A stretch of 25,940 bases of DNA, taken from the IMG/VR virus record IMGVR_UViG_3300021142_000161, positions 1 through 25,940 of that record; one strand, 5' to 3'. Origin of the DNA: a virus. Positions 1-21,394 of the stretch are shown piece by piece. The position numbers and the translations under genes were made by a program. The stretch's first letter is position 1. Each line of letters begins with the position of its first letter. Below the pieces are notes generated by a model. That model ran no database searches. It was not told the DNA's origin and worked only from the letters and a program-made list of their open reading frames with translations.

Positions 1-32
1 CAGTAAGTCGAAAGACTGAAAGTAACAGAATG
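1..32 (+). ncRNA. 3' end of a first group I intron in the coat gene (partial)
   Basis: The first 32 bases are non-coding and closely match the last ~30 bases of the complete intron ending at 457. Both have CAGTA, a GAAA-tetraloop hairpin (here AGTC-GAAA-GACT at 6-17; GGC-GAAA-GCC at 434-443) and the identical tail AGTAACAGAATG. In the complete intron the final G of this tail is the terminal guanosine, so the homologous junction here is 32/33. Translation from 33 begins in the P22-coat-like segment KPGRFIGTTGPAL, meaning the intron falls between codons. The core lies left of the window, so catalytic helices cannot be checked. The ATG at 30-32 is intron sequence and not a start codon. Confidence 0.75.
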
Positions 33-1370
33 AAACCTGGACGCTTTATTGGAACTACAGGGCCAGCCCTGAACGTAGAAGATTTCAATGAAACTTCTGT
101 GCCTGTAACTTTGTCAACACAGTTCCACGTTGACACACAGTTCACAACACAAGATTTGGCATTGTCTTTAGATATGTTCTCTGATCGTGTATTGAAGCCA
201 GCCGTTAACAGTAGCGGCCTAGTTCACTAAGAGCTAGGAAAACTGTCCCTGATTGACTTGGAACTCCTGTAGAGGACAACAAGGGGCAAGCAAGAGGAAA
301 CTCTGTGCAGCCTGAACGACTAAGTGGGATGGCCCTGAAATGGGATGCGATAGTCTGAACTAGAACGCAACTAGATGTAAACAAAGTTCTAGAGGGTGAT
401 TCGAAGAAGTTGCCCCGCCAGAAATGGTCAGTAGGCGAAAGCCGAAGTAACAGAATGTGCTGCAATTGCGAACAAAATCGACCGTGACGGTACGTTACAG
501 GCCGCTAACAACACCGCCAATATTGTCGGTACTGCTGGCACTCCACCAACAGGTTTGATCACCTATTTGACTGCTGCTGCTTACCTTGACTCTGAAGGCG
601 CACCACGTGATGGTCGTAGATCATGTATCGTTGAGCCGTTTACTTCCGCTACTATCGTTGACAGCTTGAAAGGCTTATTTGTGCCACAAGAAGCTATTGG
701 CGAACAGTATCGTAAAGGCTTGATGGGTCGTGACTCTGCTGGTATGAACTGGAAGATGGATCAGAACGTTGTAGCACATACATTCGGTTCTTTTGCTGGT
801 ACAGCTACTGTAGCAACTACAACTGCTACTGGTTTCTTGACAAGTGGTTGGGCATCAAGCTCAAACATCACTTTGACATTGACCAATGGTGTTTCATTAA
901 ACCAAGGCGATACATTCACAATCGCTGGCGTTTATGCAGTTAACCCACAAAATCGTCAGGCTTATGGTTCAAACAAGCTACGCAACTTTGTTGTTAATAC
1001 TGCTGTTAGTGGTTCAGGTAGCACGATTACTGTTAACGTAAGCCCTGCGGTTATTACTGCTGGTCAGTTCCAGAACGTATCTATCCCTTCTACTTCAGCA
1101 ACTGCTGCTGTTAGCTTCTTTAATAGCTCTGGTACTGTTTCCCCACAAAACATCATCATGCACCGCAATGCGTTTACTCTAGCAGTAGCCGACCTTGAGT
1201 TGCCAGAGGGTGTTCACTTTGCTGGTCGTGCAAGCGACAAGGAAATCGGTCTGTCAATGCGTGTAGTTCGTCAATACACCATTAACAACGACTCTATTCC
1301 TACTCGTTTAGACGTTCTGTATGGTTGGGCTAACTTGTATCCTGAACTCGCTTGCCGTGTTGCAGCTTAA
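33..1370 (+). CDS. P22-type major capsid (coat) protein, exons 33-205 and 458-1370
   Basis: Coat protein that builds the icosahedral shell. Exon 33-205 encodes KPGRFIGTTGPAL to ...DMFSDRVLKPAV. Exon 458-1370 continues AAIANKIDRDGTLQ to the C-terminal DVLYGWANLYPELACRVAA. Joined, they read through without a stop and give the order typical of P22 gp5-like coats: an N-arm 'kPgRF..GpA' segment, 'TT..LaLSLD.FSdRvLkPAv', 'AIANkIDrDG', an 'NPqnr..yGsnklrnFVV' insertion-domain segment and a 'GLSmRVvRqYti.nD..pTRlDvLyGw' tail. The visible part is 361 residues against ~430 in P22, so roughly 70 N-terminal residues lie upstream, beyond intron 1. Without splicing, translation stops at the TAA at 228-230. 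A reading that starts at the TTG at 555 would be an artefact of the intron. The family call is from memory of conserved motifs and was not searched. Confidence 0.85.
206..457 (+). ncRNA. Complete 252-nt group I intron in the coat gene, no ORF
   Basis: Self-splicing intron. P1: 5' exon GCCGU (201-205) pairs with GCGGC (214-218), with the canonical U.G pair at the splice site. P10: 3' exon UGCUG (458-462) pairs with CAGUA (209-213), next to the P1 strand as in an internal guide sequence. P2: CTAG 219-222/234-237. P3: 243-249 with 326-332 (7 bp including two G.U). A P6-type hairpin AGAG-GAAA-CTCT lies at 293-304. P7: GACTA 318-322 with TAGTC 351-355. P8: CCC 333-335 with GGG 342-344. P9-type stem: CTAGAAC 360-366 with GTTCTAG 386-392. 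The terminal hairpin is GGC-GAAA-GCC 434-443 and the last base is G457. Removing 206-457 joins GT and T into a Val codon and restores the frame. No homing endonuclease is encoded inside. The subgroup was not assigned. Confidence 0.9.
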
Positions 1371-1396
1371 TTCACGAATAACGAAAGGAAACTAAA

Positions 1397-1831
1397 ATGT
1401 CTAATCCAGGACCAGCAGTAACTACCTCGATTCACCCACAAGTTTTAGGCTCTAACCAAGCATTGCGTTTGATCGCAACTGCTCAAGGTGTTAGCTTGGC
1501 AACTTTAGGTGATACCGCAGTTAACGTAATTGATGTAACTAGCTATGTTCCAGTATCCGTTATTACGGCTAACTGTAACAACGCTGGCGCAGCAGTATCT
1601 ACAGCAAGCACTTATTTAGGTGTTTACACAGGCTTATCTGCTGGTGGTACGGCTGTTTACACTAAAGCGGCTTTAGCAACTAACACAACTACCGCTAACG
1701 CATCAGTTGTAGCTGCAACTTTAGTAGCAAGTGCAACATCTGCTCAAACTTTGTATGTAAACGTATCTTCTGCTGCTGTAACAGGCACAATTGACGTATA
1801 TGTATATGGTTACGATTTGTCAGCACAGTAA
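1397..1831 (+). CDS. Small virion protein, possible capsid decoration or head protein
   Basis: Encodes 144 residues, rich in Ala, Thr, Ser and Val, with no charged core, no transmembrane segment and alternating hydrophobic/polar stretches that suggest beta-structure (YLGVYTGLSAGGTAVY; TIDVYVYGYDLSAQ at the end). It lies 26 bp after the coat gene behind an AGGAAA ribosome site and is followed by a strong terminator, so coat and this gene probably end one late transcript. The position directly after the coat is where many phages place a decoration or head-completion protein. I do not recognise a named family; the structural role is inferred from position and composition. Confidence 0.6.
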   Translation: MSNPGPAVTTSIHPQVLGSNQALRLIATAQGVSLATLGDTAVNVIDVTSYVPVSVITANCNNAGAAVSTASTYLGVYTGLSAGGTAVYTKAALATNTTTANASVVAATLVASATSAQTLYVNVSSAAVTGTIDVYVYGYDLSAQ

Positions 1832-1849
1832 TCTGTTGTAAAATAGAAG

Positions 1850-1877
1850 CCCACCCCTTAAAAAAGGGTGGGTTTTT
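1850..1877 (+). terminator. Rho-independent terminator after the capsid genes
   Basis: CCCACCC (1850-1856) pairs perfectly with GGGTGGG (1866-1872) around an A-rich 9-nt loop and is followed directly by TTTTT (1873-1877). It lies in the gap between the small virion gene and the glycosyltransferase gene. It would limit read-through from the highly expressed capsid genes. Confidence 0.9.
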
Positions 1878-1896
1878 AACATTCTGAGGGGAGTTT

Positions 1897-2577
1897 ATGA
1901 AAAATGTAATGATTGCAATGCCTTGCTATTCAGCAAAGGTACATTTTCCGACTATGAGAGCTATTTTGTTAGATGCTATCAATATTATTGGTCGTGGCGA
2001 TAAATTTAGTATTGCAGAAGATATTGGTAATAGCGATATAGCAGGCTCAAGAGGCGCATTATTTGGTGCTTTTGTACGTTCTAAAGCAGATACGCTAGTG
2101 TTTATTGATGATGACGTATTTTGGGAGCCAGGAGCGTTAATTCAGTTAATTGATTACCCTGTAGATGTAGTAGGTGGTATTTACCCTAAAAAACAAGACC
2201 CATTTGAATGGCCTTTTAAAATTGGCATAAAAGAAGAATATCGTAATGACCCAGAAACAGGGTTAATGGAAGTATTAGGCTTGCCAGGTGGCTTTATGAA
2301 GATTAGCCGTAATTGTGCCGAAAAGATGATTGAAGCATATCCTCGTCAGACTTTAAGAAGCACAAGTGAAAACAGTCAGTTTTGGCCTTTATTTGATCCT
2401 TATGAAACGCCTGACGGCAATCGTTTAAGTGAAGATTTTAGTTTTTGCCAAAGATGGGTAGATATAGGTGGCAAAGTATGGGCAAATCTTGAATTTGAGC
2501 TAGGTCACATTGGCTACAAAACTTTTAAAGGAAGTTGTGGAAAACACTTGAGAGATCAACAAAACAATGTAAAATAG
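1897..2577 (+). CDS. Glycosyltransferase-like protein (GT-A fold)
   Basis: 226 residues. An N-terminal strand IAMPCYSAKVHF is followed by SRGALFGAFVRSKADTLVFIDDDVFWEPGAL (about 51-81). The DDD at residues 71-73 is the likely metal/nucleotide-sugar DxD motif of GT-A transferases. VVGGIYPKKQ, LPGGFMKISR and LSEDFSFCQRW resemble the acceptor and catalytic-base regions of phage-borne family-2-like enzymes. A good ribosome site (GAGGGGAG) precedes the ATG. It opens the segment after the capsid terminator and sits among virion genes. It may modify a virion protein or host surface glycan; substrate and target cannot be read from the sequence. Confidence 0.75.
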   Translation: MKNVMIAMPCYSAKVHFPTMRAILLDAINIIGRGDKFSIAEDIGNSDIAGSRGALFGAFVRSKADTLVFIDDDVFWEPGALIQLIDYPVDVVGGIYPKKQDPFEWPFKIGIKEEYRNDPETGLMEVLGLPGGFMKISRNCAEKMIEAYPRQTLRSTSENSQFWPLFDPYETPDGNRLSEDFSFCQRWVDIGGKVWANLEFELGHIGYKTFKGSCGKHLRDQQNNVK

Positions 2578-2617
2578 TTGTAGATTTACCACACTACCCC
2601 TTTGCAAAGGAAAAATT

Positions 2618-2944
2618 ATGTCTAGTACCACAGTTACTCGTGGCAATTCCCACGAAACTTTTTATATTACCCCATCATTAACTCCAGCCCAAGTTGCTTT
2701 AAATACAACTGCTGCACAGACTTTTAGCGTTCCTGGCTTACAAACTACTGATTTTGTAAATGTTATTGGTTATCAAGGCACACAAACTGCTGGTATTGTT
2801 GTTGCTGAAGCTGATTGCTTAACTGCAAACGTATTGTCAGTTCAATTTGGAAACTGTGCTACCGCTAGTGCTACTCCAGCTTCTGGCTTGTATGCTATTC
2901 AAATTACTCGCTTAGAAGGCCCAGCACCATCTACTGCTGTTTAA
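2618..2944 (+). CDS. Small phage structural protein, unknown function
   Basis: 108 residues, Thr/Ala rich, beta-prone, no membrane segment. The start follows an AAAGGA ribosome site. That site lies inside the 12-bp palindrome CCTTTGCAAAGG (2599-2610), which could form only a weak 4-bp hairpin. It begins a run of three short genes that end just before the tail fibre, with almost identical stop/ribosome-site junctions. I do not recognise the family. A head or tail decoration role is a guess from composition and position. Confidence 0.55.
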   Translation: MSSTTVTRGNSHETFYITPSLTPAQVALNTTAAQTFSVPGLQTTDFVNVIGYQGTQTAGIVVAEADCLTANVLSVQFGNCATASATPASGLYAIQITRLEGPAPSTAV

Positions 2945-2953
2945 GGATAAATC

Positions 2954-3307
2954 ATGGCTAACGTATCAGCTTACCGCTTTGTTGGCCCGACAACGGCCAT
3001 ATCAGTAACTACATCTAGTTCAACTTCTGTAACTATTACCCCTAATGGTAATGATCAAGCGAACTTTTGTGGCTTTTTAAACGTAGGTACAACACCTATC
3101 GCTATTACTATTGCTCCAGCCGTTGCAGGAACAACGACAACTGCACCAGCAGCCGTTCTCCCAACAGGTGGAAATAGCTCACAGAGCTTTGTTTTAGGCA
3201 TTTCAATGTCACAGCCTACTGTGATTGCTGTACCGCCTAGCTTTGCTATTACAGCTATTGGAACAGCTAATACGCTATATGTATTGCCTATGGTCGATCA
3301 AAACTAA
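2954..3307 (+). CDS. Small phage structural protein, unknown function
   Basis: 117 residues beginning MANVSAYRFVGPTTAISVTT, rich in Thr, Ala, Ile and Pro, with strand-like repeats such as ISVTTSSSTSVTITPNG and TPIAITIAPAVAG. It contains FLNVGTTPIAI and ends YVLPMVDQN. No catalytic motif or membrane segment is visible. It is separated from the gene before by 9 bp; that gene's stop overlaps this gene's ribosome site (TAAGGA). A single beta-sandwich that binds the capsid or tail is a reasonable guess from the composition, but no family was recognised. Confidence 0.55.
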   Translation: MANVSAYRFVGPTTAISVTTSSSTSVTITPNGNDQANFCGFLNVGTTPIAITIAPAVAGTTTTAPAAVLPTGGNSSQSFVLGISMSQPTVIAVPPSFAITAIGTANTLYVLPMVDQN

Positions 3308-3316
3308 GGAATAATT

Positions 3317-3787
3317 ATGGCAAACCCAGGCGTAGCAAGTAGTTCAGTTATCAATCTATTGCCAGTTCAGGCTGAATACGATGCTAATAACAATTGTTTA
3401 GGTCTATATGGTCAAGGTGGTAATGCTTTATATGCCCCATACAATGCTAGTTCATTGTCTATTGGCAATAATTTAGTTGCTTCTACCACGCTTCCTACAG
3501 TTTCTAGCGGTTTTGGCACAGGCCCTACTGTTCTTGCTAATAACACTTTTTGTTTTAAAGTAACAGTTGGCACAGGTGGCGCAGCTAACGGAACAATTAG
3601 CCTTCCTACAGCCCCTAATGGATGGCTTTCTTTTGCTGCCGATGTAACAAGTGGTAGTTCATTGTTTTTACAGCTAACAGGTAGCACAGCAACATCAGTT
3701 ACATTTACTAGCTATTCTGTTACAACAGGTGCTGCTGCAAATATGTCTGCTGGAGATGTGGTTTTAATTAACTGTATTGCCTATTAA
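3317..3787 (+). CDS. Short fibre-like protein sharing the tail fibre's N-terminal motif
   Basis: 156 residues. The first ~45 (SSVINLLPVQAEYDANNN, then LGLYGQGGNALYAPYN) match the start of the next gene (VTQNLLPVQAYFNLDG, then FIGQNMPFYATTNP). This suggests a shared virion-attachment motif, NLLPVQA followed by a GQ...YA element. The rest is Ser/Thr/Ala/Val-rich and beta-prone (FKVTVGTGGAANGTISLP), ending SAGDVVLINCIAY. It precedes the large fibre by 9 bp with a stop/ribosome-site junction (TAAGGG). It may be a short second fibre or an adaptor that docks at the same site. This is inferred from the shared motif only. Confidence 0.6.
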   Translation: MANPGVASSSVINLLPVQAEYDANNNCLGLYGQGGNALYAPYNASSLSIGNNLVASTTLPTVSSGFGTGPTVLANNTFCFKVTVGTGGAANGTISLPTAPNGWLSFAADVTSGSSLFLQLTGSTATSVTFTSYSVTTGAAANMSAGDVVLINCIAY

Positions 3788-3796
3788 GGGTAATTT

Positions 3797-6058
3797 ATGG
3801 CAAACATAAATGATTCTGTAACTCAGAATCTACTGCCTGTCCAAGCGTATTTTAACTTGGATGGGTCTTTTAATACGTTTATAGGGCAGAATATGCCCTT
3901 TTACGCTACTACTAACCCTGTTCAGTCAGGGTTAACCATTACAAATAGTACGATTGATAGCACGACTATTGGTGCTACTACCCCATCTACTGGGGTTTTT
4001 ACTAATATCACAACAACTACAGGTCAAATAACAACTCAACCTAGCGGTGCTACTGACATTGTTAACTTGCTTGCTTTGCAATCGTATGCTGCTGGAATAA
4101 GCTGGAAACAACCTGTAGCTTGTGCAACAACAGCCAATATTACGCTTTCAGGTCTGCAAACAATTGACACTTACACGACTTTATCAGGCGATAGAGTCAT
4201 TGTTAAAAATCAGAGTACAAGTGCTAACAATGGCATTTATATTGCCTCTAGCGGTGCTTGGACTCGTTCTACAGATGCAGATACATGGAATGAGTTAGTT
4301 TCAGCTATTGCATTTATTGAATATGGTTCACAAGCTGGTGGCGCATGGTTCTGTACAGTAACTCCTGGCGGTACATTAGGCGTAACTCCTGTAACTTGGG
4401 CGCAATTTACGACTTCAGCTACTTATAGCGCAGGCACAGGATTAAGTCTTACAGGCTATACATTTAGCATTACAAACACAGGCACAGCAGGCACTTATGG
4501 TTCTGCAAGCGCAGTTCCTGTTTTTGTTACAAACGCTCAAGGTCAAGTCACTAGCGTAACGAATACAAGTATCGCAATTGCTAATACTCAGGTTTCTGGG
4601 CTTGGCACAATGTCAACGCAAAATGCCAATAACGTAGCAATTACAGGTGGATCAATCAATGGCACAACTATTGGGGCTTCTACTGCTTCAACTGTTACTG
4701 GTACTACCATTACTGCTAATAGTAGTTTTAGCGGTCCTGGAACTGGGCTAACAGGCACAGCAACTTCATTATCTATTGGTGGCTCTGCTGGATCAGCTAC
4801 CACAGCCGGAAGTGTAACTAATAGCGTTACATTTAATAATGGTGGTACAGGCGCAGCATCAGGCACAACTTTTAATGGCTCTGTTGCTCAGACTATTTCT
4901 TACAATACTATTGGCGCACCTAGCACTACAGGTACAGGCGCAAGTGGCACATGGGGAATAAATGTTACAGGCAACGCTGCTACAGTAACGAATGGTGTAT
5001 ATACAACTAGTAGCTACTCAAATCCTACTTGGATTACATCAATTCTAGGCTCTATTGTTAGTGGTGCAGTAGCATCAGCTACAACCTCTACTAATCTATC
5101 AGGCGGTTTAGCTGGTTCTTTGCCATATCAATCAGGCGCAGGCGCAACAACGTTTTTAGGTATTGGTTCTGCAAACTATGTATTAACGTCAACTGGCTCT
5201 GCACCACAATACGTTGCTCAAAGCACATTGTCAGTAGGATCAGCTTCTACAGCAACAACAGCAACTAATCTTGCTGGTGGTATTGCTAGTCAAATACCTT
5301 ATCAAACTGGAGCTGGAACAACTGCTTTTGTAGCCAATGGAACAACAGGTCAGTTTTTAACATCTAATGGTACTTCTGCTCCATCATGGACAACAGTAAC
5401 AACTGCCGTAACGATTAGTGACCAAACATCATCTGCAAGCGTGTTTTATCCTGTATTTGTAAATGCTACTTCAGGCACTACAAACACAATAGACACTAGC
5501 TCTACAAAACTTCAATATGTTCCTTCTACTGGTTCTTTTAGTGCCACGACTTTTGTAGGAGCATTAACAGGTAATGCCACAACTGCAACTTCTGCTACTT
5601 CAGCAACTACAGCAACAAATATAGCTGGCGGTGCTAATGGTTCTGTTCCTTATCAAACAGGAAGCGGTGCAACAACATTTTTAGCGGCTGGTACTAACGG
5701 CTATATTATGACTTTAGCTAGTGGTGTTCCTACTTGGGCTGCCGCACCAGCAACAGGCGTAACAATTTCAGACGATACAAGTTCTGCAACTGCTTATTAC
5801 CCACTATATGCAAGAGTAACAAGCGGTACTGCTTCAACTGAATATACAAGTTCAACTAAATATCTTTATAAGCCATCAACAGGCGAATTAACTTCACCTA
5901 TCACTATAGCTTCTAACGGATTACAACTAAATAGTTCTACTGTATCTACAAGCTACACAATAGCCACAGGAAACAATGCAATGAGTGTTGGTCCTATGAC
6001 AATTGCAAGCGGTCAATCAGTTACAGTAAGTTCAGGTCAAAGGTGGGTGGTTCTATGA
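3797..6058 (+). CDS. Long tail fibre protein with internal repeats
   Basis: 753 residues of low-charge, Ser/Thr/Gly/Ala-rich repetitive sequence typical of trimeric tail fibres. Order: an N-terminal NLLPVQA attachment-like segment (1-50). About residues 90-200 hold a domain with NLLALQSYAAGISWKQPV, GDRVIVKNQ, NNGIYIASSGAWTRSTDAD and TPVTWAQF, common in phage fibres. A shaft of G/T/S repeats follows. Then come three copies of an 'ATN(L/I)(S/A)GG...PYQ(S/T)G.G.T.F' unit (near residues 433, 492 and 608) and two copies of 'SD.TSSA..(F/Y)YP...TSGT...TSSTK...PSTG' (near 540 and 657). The C-terminus is SSGQRWVVL, and the next gene starts within the stop (ATGA). It probably recognises the host surface. 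Sequence repetitiveness makes it a recombination hot spot. Confidence 0.8.
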   Translation: MANINDSVTQNLLPVQAYFNLDGSFNTFIGQNMPFYATTNPVQSGLTITNSTIDSTTIGATTPSTGVFTNITTTTGQITTQPSGATDIVNLLALQSYAAGISWKQPVACATTANITLSGLQTIDTYTTLSGDRVIVKNQSTSANNGIYIASSGAWTRSTDADTWNELVSAIAFIEYGSQAGGAWFCTVTPGGTLGVTPVTWAQFTTSATYSAGTGLSLTGYTFSITNTGTAGTYGSASAVPVFVTNAQGQVTSVTNTSIAIANTQVSGLGTMSTQNANNVAITGGSINGTTIGASTASTVTGTTITANSSFSGPGTGLTGTATSLSIGGSAGSATTAGSVTNSVTFNNGGTGAASGTTFNGSVAQTISYNTIGAPSTTGTGASGTWGINVTGNAATVTNGVYTTSSYSNPTWITSILGSIVSGAVASATTSTNLSGGLAGSLPYQSGAGATTFLGIGSANYVLTSTGSAPQYVAQSTLSVGSASTATTATNLAGGIASQIPYQTGAGTTAFVANGTTGQFLTSNGTSAPSWTTVTTAVTISDQTSSASVFYPVFVNATSGTTNTIDTSSTKLQYVPSTGSFSATTFVGALTGNATTATSATSATTATNIAGGANGSVPYQTGSGATTFLAAGTNGYIMTLASGVPTWAAAPATGVTISDDTSSATAYYPLYARVTSGTASTEYTSSTKYLYKPSTGELTSPITIASNGLQLNSSTVSTSYTIATGNNAMSVGPMTIASGQSVTVSSGQRWVVL
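5094..5905 (+). repeat. Coding repeats in the tail fibre shaft
   Basis: Three copies of a ~21-residue unit (GGLAGSLPYQSGAGATTFL type) lie at about 5094-5158, 5270-5332 and 5620-5683. Two copies of a ~45-residue unit starting ISDQTSSA / ISDDTSSA lie at about 5410-5560 and 5760-5905. The copies are diverged at DNA level, so these are old protein repeats and not a recent DNA duplication. Confidence 0.7.
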
Positions 6059-6600
6059 GTTCAGTAGTCATTTCAGGCGATACAAGCGGTACTATTACAT
6101 TAGCCGCCCCAGCCGTAGCTGGTACAAATACTATTACGCTTCCTGCCGCTACTGGTACTGCTTTAGTTTCAGGTAATCAACCAGTATTTAGCGTTTATTC
6201 AAGTGCTAATCAAACAGGATTGACAATTAGCACACTTAATAAAATAGCTTTTGACACAAAACTTTACGATTCTGCTTCTTGTTTTAATACATCTAATTAT
6301 CGTTTTACACCAACAGTAGCTGGGTATTACCAATTTAATATGTGTGTTTATATAACATCCGTAGCTTTAACAATAATAGAGCCATTTATTTATAAAAATG
6401 GAAGCATTTTTAGTTCTGGTCAATATTTATCTGCGTCAGGCGGAACTACGGCAATAGGAACTGCAAGCAATATTATTTATTGCAATGGCTCAACTGATTA
6501 CATTGAATTTTATGCTTATGCACAAGGTACTGCAAGTTATACAATCAATGCTTCTTTAAATTACACTTTTGCTTCAGGTTGCCTTGTAAGGACTGCATAA
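6055..6600 (+). CDS. C1q/TNF-like jelly-roll fibre tip protein
   Basis: 181 residues from the ATG at 6055. That start overlaps the fibre stop as ATGA and has AGGTGGG upstream, so it is better than the GTG at 6043. The N-terminal 45 residues (VVISGDTSGTITLAAPAVAG, TNTITLPAATGTALVSG) are the linker repeat seen at the start of many phage fibre tips. From FSVYSSANQTGLTIS the protein follows the C1q-like plan: NKIAFDTKLYD, YRFTPTVAGYYQFNMCVYI, YIEFYAYAQG. C1q-like domains form trimeric jelly-roll heads and act as binding tips. Translational coupling to the fibre gene suggests a second subunit of the same fibre or a split receptor-binding tip. Confidence 0.7.
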   Translation: MSSVVISGDTSGTITLAAPAVAGTNTITLPAATGTALVSGNQPVFSVYSSANQTGLTISTLNKIAFDTKLYDSASCFNTSNYRFTPTVAGYYQFNMCVYITSVALTIIEPFIYKNGSIFSSGQYLSASGGTTAIGTASNIIYCNGSTDYIEFYAYAQGTASYTINASLNYTFASGCLVRTA

Positions 6601-10175: not shown

Positions 10176-10784
10176 ATGAAAACACTAGCAGAATTAAAAG
10201 CAGAAAAATTAAAAGTAAACAGAGCAATAAAAAGATTAAAAGATAACGAAGCATACGCAAGAAAAGTAAACAGAGAAATAGGTGCGCCAGGAAAACCAGC
10301 AAACACTCCTAAAGTGCTTTGGAGCAAAGTTGATAAACGTAGCAAAGATGAATGTTGGAATTGGAAAGGTTTTATAAATCATGATGGTTATGGAAGGACT
10401 TGGATTAATGACAAAGGCTACTATGCTCATAGAGTCATTTATTCGCTTGCTTATCCAAACACGATTAACCTTAGTGCGCCCAAATTTACAGATAATTCAG
10501 GATTTCTTTTACACACTTGCGACAATCCTTCTTGCTGTAATCCAAAACATTTATGGGTTGGCACTCATGCTGATAATATGGCTGATAAAGTTGCCAAAGG
10601 CAGACAAAAAAGATTTCCACAAGATTCTGGCCCACGTTGCAAACTTACAATGGATCAAGCTAGAGAAGCTAGATTACTTAGGAAAAATGGTATGACTGTT
10701 TTACAATTAATGGAAAAATTTGAATTAAGTCGTGCTAGTATGAAAACCTTGTTACGTGGTGATTCATACAAGGAAAGCGAATAA
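10176..10784 (+). CDS. Free-standing HNH homing endonuclease
   Basis: 202 residues. The N-terminal ~45 are highly basic and helical. The HNH_3-type core spans about 48-145: ECWNWKGFINHDGYGR (59-74), AHR at 84-86, LLHTCDNPSCCNPKHLWVGT (111-130, with H113, C115, N122 and H125 as likely catalytic/metal residues) and NMADKVAKGR (134-143). A C-terminal helix-turn-helix (LTMDQAREARLLRKNGMTVLQLMEKF, about 157-182, then SRASMKTLLRG) is the DNA-binding half seen in intron-type endonucleases. It lies between the gp4- and gp10-like genes, normally neighbours in P22-type modules, and has its own extended -10 promoter and a ribosome site. It looks like an inserted selfish gene, though it carries no intron itself. 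Confidence 0.85.
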   Translation: MKTLAELKAEKLKVNRAIKRLKDNEAYARKVNREIGAPGKPANTPKVLWSKVDKRSKDECWNWKGFINHDGYGRTWINDKGYYAHRVIYSLAYPNTINLSAPKFTDNSGFLLHTCDNPSCCNPKHLWVGTHADNMADKVAKGRQKRFPQDSGPRCKLTMDQAREARLLRKNGMTVLQLMEKFELSRASMKTLLRGDSYKESE

Positions 10785-20889: not shown

Positions 20890-21101
20890 TGTTTAAGCGC
20901 AAGCACTAAAACTACAAAACAAAGAAAAAGAATATAAGCCACATTGCACCAATATTCAAAACGCAGCTTATAAGGATCGCCAATTAACCATTTTTGAATC
21001 TCTAACATATCTGGGTCGTGCTCTGTATAACGAGGTTTAAGTGGGTTTTCGTCATACCTAGAGCTAATTAAGACTTTGCCGTTGTTAAGATAATCAATCA
21101 T
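20886..21101 (-). CDS. Small single-pass membrane protein
   Basis: 71 residues. The soluble N-terminal half (MIDYLNNGKVLISSRYDEN, MLEIQKWLIGDPYKLRFEYW) is followed by a C-terminal membrane helix, about 50-68 (WCNVAYILFLCFVVLVLALKH). It is tail-anchored with a positively charged end. Its ATG overlaps the stop of the HNH gene (ATGA), and its own TGA forms the TTGA start of the next gene, so it is tightly coupled. No family recognised; superinfection-exclusion or membrane-targeting roles are possible but not shown. Confidence 0.5.
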   Translation of the reverse strand: MIDYLNNGKVLISSRYDENPLKPRYTEHDPDMLEIQKWLIGDPYKLRFEYWCNVAYILFLCFVVLVLALKH

Positions 21102-21394
21102 TTCTCACTTGCCTTTCGATGTTTCATGTTTTCAGCATGACTTAAAACCCTTAAATTTTCGATTCTATTGTCATGTCTAATTCGATTGATATGGTCAATT
21201 TCTAAAGGTGCTTCAGGCATATAACCATGAAACATTTGAAAAATTATTCTATGCACTAAATATCGTTTTTTGTTAATAGAAACTTGTTTATAGCCGTCTG
21301 TAATGGTTGCACCAGCCAAACTGCCAGCCTTTTGCCGACCACGACTAACTTTCCAATAAAGTTCGCCATCTTTATATTCAAACAAATCTTTCAT
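21098..21394 (-). CDS. HNH endonuclease (HNH_3/AP2-like small type)
   Basis: 98 residues. MKDLFEYKDGELYWKVSRGR and AGSLAGATITDGYKQVSINK form the N-terminal beta module seen before HNH_3 domains. Then VHRIIFQMFHGYMP and EIDHINRIRHDNRIENLRVL hold the HNH core: H48-R49, D67-H68 and N80. AENMKH follows. It is a homing-type nuclease without introns in its neighbourhood. It is embedded in the operon with ATGA overlaps on both sides, so it is not an obvious recent insertion. It may have been domesticated, or may mobilise itself or the coat introns. Confidence 0.8.
   Translation of the reverse strand: MKDLFEYKDGELYWKVSRGRQKAGSLAGATITDGYKQVSINKKRYLVHRIIFQMFHGYMPEAPLEIDHINRIRHDNRIENLRVLSHAENMKHRKASEK

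Follow-up and report, generated by a model that had tools for sequence, protein, structure and literature searches.

An ORF-less group I intron in the P22-type coat gene of an uncultivated lake phage and its family in major capsid genes

Published phage group I introns show an apparent preference for genes of nucleotide synthesis and DNA metabolism (PMC12350094). Phage virion genes are already known to contain group I introns without an ORF: the mycobacteriophages LittleE (capsid) and BAKA (tail; 265 bp, ORF-less) carry introns that, like the one described here, have a U before the 5′ junction and a G as the last intron nucleotide, and their splicing was shown by RT-PCR (PMC3706429). One site per gene is occupied there and no multi-site coat family was reported, and the likeness is drawn from the published description (PMC3706429). 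The Jug phages, also compared by description, combine short group I introns (about 206 nt) with free-standing HNH and GIY-YIG genes, as in our case, and RNA reads support splicing for 37 of 76 of them; the examples come from the terL and nrdD genes of huge gut phages, whereas ours is a coat gene (PMC12363816). T4-type and collaborative homing (PMC2988022, PMC3984707) share with our locus the apparent co-conversion of flanking exons and the involvement of free-standing endonucleases on intronless alleles, the difference being that the enzyme in our window is a candidate. The unusual part of the locus is the intron family that surrounds it.

The intron and its predicted fold

The window, by which we mean the whole 25,940-base stretch of viral DNA analysed, has a P22-type coat gene (PF11651) in its first 1,370 bases, interrupted at 206–457 on the plus strand. 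The coat frame meets a stop codon at 228–230 and homology to coat proteins returns past 457. The upstream exon (33–205) was delimited by tblastn to P0001 and alignment, and the 3′ exon (458–1370) matches the P22 coat family with E=6.4e-25 over 555–1367. The alignment diagonals from the two sides join 205 to 458, with U205 preceding the intron and G457 as its terminal guanosine (omega-G). The joined reading is stop-free over 362 residues and restores GUU (Val109), which the intron splits in phase 2 at what we call coat site 326. The 252-nt intron contains no sense ORF. The preliminary description, made from the sequence of the window, had named the same host gene, stop codon, ORF-less intron and return of the coat sequence, all borne out by reading frame, alignments and Pfam match; it had placed the splice sites at 205/206 and 457/458 and the restored Val codon from a hand-drawn fold, and protein homology gives identical junctions independently of that fold. 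Judged by dN/dS against an intronless relative (about 0.04 and 0.11 for the two exons, the latter being 458–1370), purifying selection acts on both flanking exons.

Junctions of the coat introns were generally set by protein homology on either side, with the 3′ end taken from an AACAG.ATG motif; where the motif was missing, U and G were required at the junctions. P1 pairing was left out when deriving the junctions of the main intron set. The guides nevertheless fit their own exons, with a mean P1 score of 12 vs. 6.7 when exons and introns were swapped across sites (permutation p about 5e-5). In the window, P1 pairs 201–205 with 214–218, with U205.G214 at the junction, and the P10 strand (209–213) pairs with 458–462; P10 pairing at some other coat-intron sites is weaker. 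A P2 hairpin (219–225/231–237) comes from the minimum-free-energy fold. P3 (243–249 with 326–332) is interleaved with P7 and has changes on both sides in six of seven pairs, 98.2% of its cells being paired. P5 (265–268/273–276) covaries, while its neighbour P4 (257–260/280–283) varies on one side only. Covariation is also seen in P6 (284–287/310–313), which is followed by P6a (290–291/307–308); in P8 (333–336 with 341–344; 80–100% paired); and in the peripheral hairpins P9 (360–366/386–392), P9.1 (394–401/408–415), P9.2 (418–420/425–427) and P9.3 (434–436/441–443). Across 31 coat introns, standard pairs fill 95.8% of the pair cells, vs. 38–44% with partners slid by one to three columns, and in 34 of the 51 pairs both partners have changed. 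P7 (318–322 GACUA with 351–355 UAGUC) is invariant in all 31 introns; as it never varies, covariation cannot test it and its support is the sequence itself. With that qualification for P7, the helices P1, P10, P3, P7 and P8 of the preliminary description are borne out. A single-sequence fold finds P2 to P6 and P9.1 to P9.3 unaided (z=-2.74), although its minimum-free-energy structure mispairs P9. No P7–P3 insertion or P5abc-like extension was seen in the coat-intron fold.

A covariance model built from 25 coat introns, all at sites other than 326, matches window 238–417 with 152.7 bits (E=1.1e-33) and gives no match at E 0.01 on 15 intronless loci. Rfam scans of the window found no match at either gathering or E-value thresholds, with RF00028 silent even when a 700-base scan was relaxed to E 10; the covariance-model check proposed in the preliminary description thus succeeded with our independent model and not with the Rfam one. 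RF00028 misses the whole coat-intron family at its cut-off. Below threshold it reaches three family members at locus L077 (E 0.012–0.046), which the independent model detects too, and as these alignments are in register, they connect the family with group I introns already known. The group I assignment is further supported by the covariation and by the intronless alleles of close relatives. No finding of the kind that the preliminary description had named as refuting it came up. A related coat gene contains a different group I intron (L049 1380–1676), to which RF00028 gives 82 bits.

In the coat RNA, P1, formed by exon GCCGU and guide GCGGC, would place U205 for cleavage; exogenous guanosine bound at P7 would attack the 5′ site, a chemistry taken over from the group I family, and U205 would then attack past G457, with P10 aiding alignment, to give joined exons and an uninterrupted coat mRNA. 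The in-frame stop at 228–230 could alternatively mark an unspliced insertion that leaves the coat gene a pseudogene or makes it encode two polypeptides. We regard this as very improbable given the purifying selection on both exons, the open joined frame, and similar inserts at no fewer than ten sites, with frame-restoring U and G ends and a covarying ribozyme fold. Still more improbable is a group II intron or an intein: the Rfam scans gave no group II match, whether to domain V/VI or to D1–D4, and both the stop codon within the frame and the covarying P3–P9 of the RNA core speak against either reading. That the element is a group I intron needing a host or phage protein, or a neighbouring intron, to splice in the cell is a serious possibility, though one to which we give less than even weight. 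Precedent exists in Bastillevirinae phages, where four of eight spliced genes were spliced in infected cells only (PMC11878797); on the other side stand the completeness of the compact core, with P1 to P10 and peripheral P9 hairpins, and the stability of the fold.

Relatives in capsid genes and a short upstream insert

The window opens with the 3′-terminal stretch of another group I intron from the family (1–32, plus strand; coat site 153; omega-G at 32), which is cut by the contig start and had been overlooked in the preliminary description. Window 1–3985 is 99.8% identical to 2376–6360 of locus L113, where the complete site-153 intron lies at 2180–2407; the ATG at 30–32 is intron sequence and not a start codon. 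The contig start probably reflects a break at such a repeated kind of sequence. On a 1,263-nt reference coat CDS, the introns occupy at least ten sites (116, 153, 221, 255, 326, 612, 1082, 1167, 1178 and 1197), the last few based on one or two loci each, and a single P22-type coat gene has up to three of them (L061, L121). Six of the ten sites end in CCGU and have a GCGG guide.

A strict core-pattern scan found at least 120 loci, a sample that is not random and from which the capsid exemplars were also drawn. Among the 120 loci listed, the intron lies at most 400 nt from a major-capsid exon in 112: the exon belongs to a P22 coat gene in 49 and, in the rest, resembles proteins matching PHROG major head families 1357, 9953, 267 and 14242 or, in a single case, a relative without a label. 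The remaining loci are one portal gene, one ribonucleotide reductase gene and six unclassified. Major capsid genes of the phrog_1357 type contain about three to five introns each at L018, L021, L036, L077, L097, L104 and L108; a brief literature search found no papers on multi-intron capsid genes. DNA-similarity matches among annotated phage records were confined to MW202674, which has a related intron elsewhere in the same coat gene and is annotated as two ‘P22 coat protein’ pieces, and the cultured Roseobacter phage CRP-118, in which a family member (L325 3500–3669, in the gp44/gp45 gap; model E=9.5e-18) splits the ribonucleotide reductase gene.

Upstream of where the window starts, the same phage has a 40-nt insert past coat codon 40 (L113 2106–2145) that opens with a stop codon and is followed by about 33–34 nt of coat exon and then the site-153 intron. 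Such inserts, of 33, 40 or 41 nt, were found at 30 loci (among them L113, L008, L009, L020, L023, L024, L121 and L236), always with the site-153 intron downstream, at a distance of 34 nt in all 30. They were collected with a 15-base pattern scan that yields mostly chance matches, and only loci in coat context were kept. Cutting after a U, before AUAAA at the start of the insert, and between its final UUG and the following A restores the frame for every insert length. The insert and its flanking exons are predicted to pair as in P1, with U.G at the junction, and as in P10, and to form two more helices that involve the 3′ exon; the 29 pairs are paired in 99.4% of cells vs. 36–50% when slid. Seven pairs have changed on both sides, several via synonymous codon changes in the exon, some of the compensating changes being seen at a single locus. 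P1 and P10 alone arise in 1–6% of shuffles and are thus no more than modestly unlikely by chance. No P7 guanosine site was recognised in the predicted folds. That the insert is a relic of one of the coat introns was considered and rejected, as it has no recognisable likeness to them (p 0.34–0.82).

We tentatively propose, as a doubtful but specific model, that the insert may be a coreless mini-intron, consisting of P1, P10 and a 3′-exon helix and spliced by the core of the neighbouring intron. Introns of 63–75 nt in Phialophora (PMC3160393) likewise have a P1 with G.U, a P10 and pairing between mid-intron and 3′ exon; our insert differs in being 33–41 nt long, lying in a phage coding gene, ending in G rather than U and having no P7 that we found. 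Ribosomal bypassing as in T4 gene 60 (PMC11194080, PMC5009743) was considered as another explanation. The stop directly past the last codon and the flanking hairpins suit it, but bypassing would need a landing codon that matches the take-off codon GUA, and the required frame offers none. The three insert lengths exclude a fixed frameshift. If the mini-intron model is true, the insert would be a satellite intron dependent on another ribozyme, shorter than the group I introns of 56–81 nt found in the literature, and the coat transcript would contain two complete group I introns and a mini-intron.

Movement of the intron and its significance

Intronless coat relatives, the search for which had been suggested in the preliminary description, were found. 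Among annotated phages whose coat gene is uninterrupted, MW202520 is the closest, and the coat gene at locus L073 is 97.5% identical to that of the window and has no intron at site 326. The window and L073 differ at 27 positions in 1,089 nt, all within −6 to +218 of the insertion site, with zero differences in about 165 nt upstream and about 690 nt downstream. This confinement points to a co-conversion tract and so argues for recent movement of the intron at the DNA level; it looks like the trace expected of double-strand-break repair with co-conversion. The tract could also be ordinary recombination between phages, and no close donor of it was seen among the loci compared. In a tree of intron cores, the site-326 introns fall in three places, and supported branches enforce at least two of these, so that the site has been filled, or cores exchanged, more than once.

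A free-standing HNH endonuclease gene at 10176–10784 (plus strand; Pfam HNH_3 E=2.5e-06) is a candidate for a trans-acting homing enzyme. Of the intron-bearing records, 6 of 10 have a homolog with at least 65% identity, and of the intronless ones 0 of 14 (p=0.0016, with no correction for relatedness); a close HNH is missing from four intron-bearing records. On this co-occurrence, we infer that the HNH protein may drive homing of the coat intron. In the sister contig L100, the slot of this gene, between an SU10-type adaptor gene and the one that follows, is taken by a gene that by eye is GIY-YIG-like (L100 2647–3342). A second small HNH gene lies in the window at 21098–21394 on the minus strand (HNH_3 E=4.3e-19).

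The introns might instead have spread between coat sites by an RNA route, through reverse splicing, reverse transcription and recombination and without endonucleases. The CCGU ends and GCGG guides at six of the ten sites speak for such a route, as does the occurrence of the site-326 intron in at least two lineages. We nonetheless consider it unlikely, as the −6 to +218 tract resembles double-strand-break repair, the HNH gene co-occurs with the intron, and direct experimental evidence for an RNA pathway is, according to a review (PMC3984707), lacking. DNA-level homing or gene conversion would account for the arrival in the window allele, most likely begun by an endonuclease encoded elsewhere, with the HNH gene at 10176–10784 as the candidate; the relatives at other coat sites may go back to ectopic moves that happened occasionally, when an intron reverse-spliced into a CCGU-like target or the endonuclease slipped. 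As a whole, it is highly probable that 206–457 is a group I intron that is spliced from the coat mRNA and that arrived by DNA-level homing or conversion.

The locus points to a single ribozyme family, below the Rfam cut-off, that has specialised in major capsid genes across several lineages of phage and fills many sites within a single gene. Its covariance model recovers capsid genes broken in two by annotation, as in MW202674, and the member in cultured CRP-118 offers a laboratory handle on the family. With filled and empty alleles that are nearly identical, intron homing can be read directly in an uncultivated lake phage.
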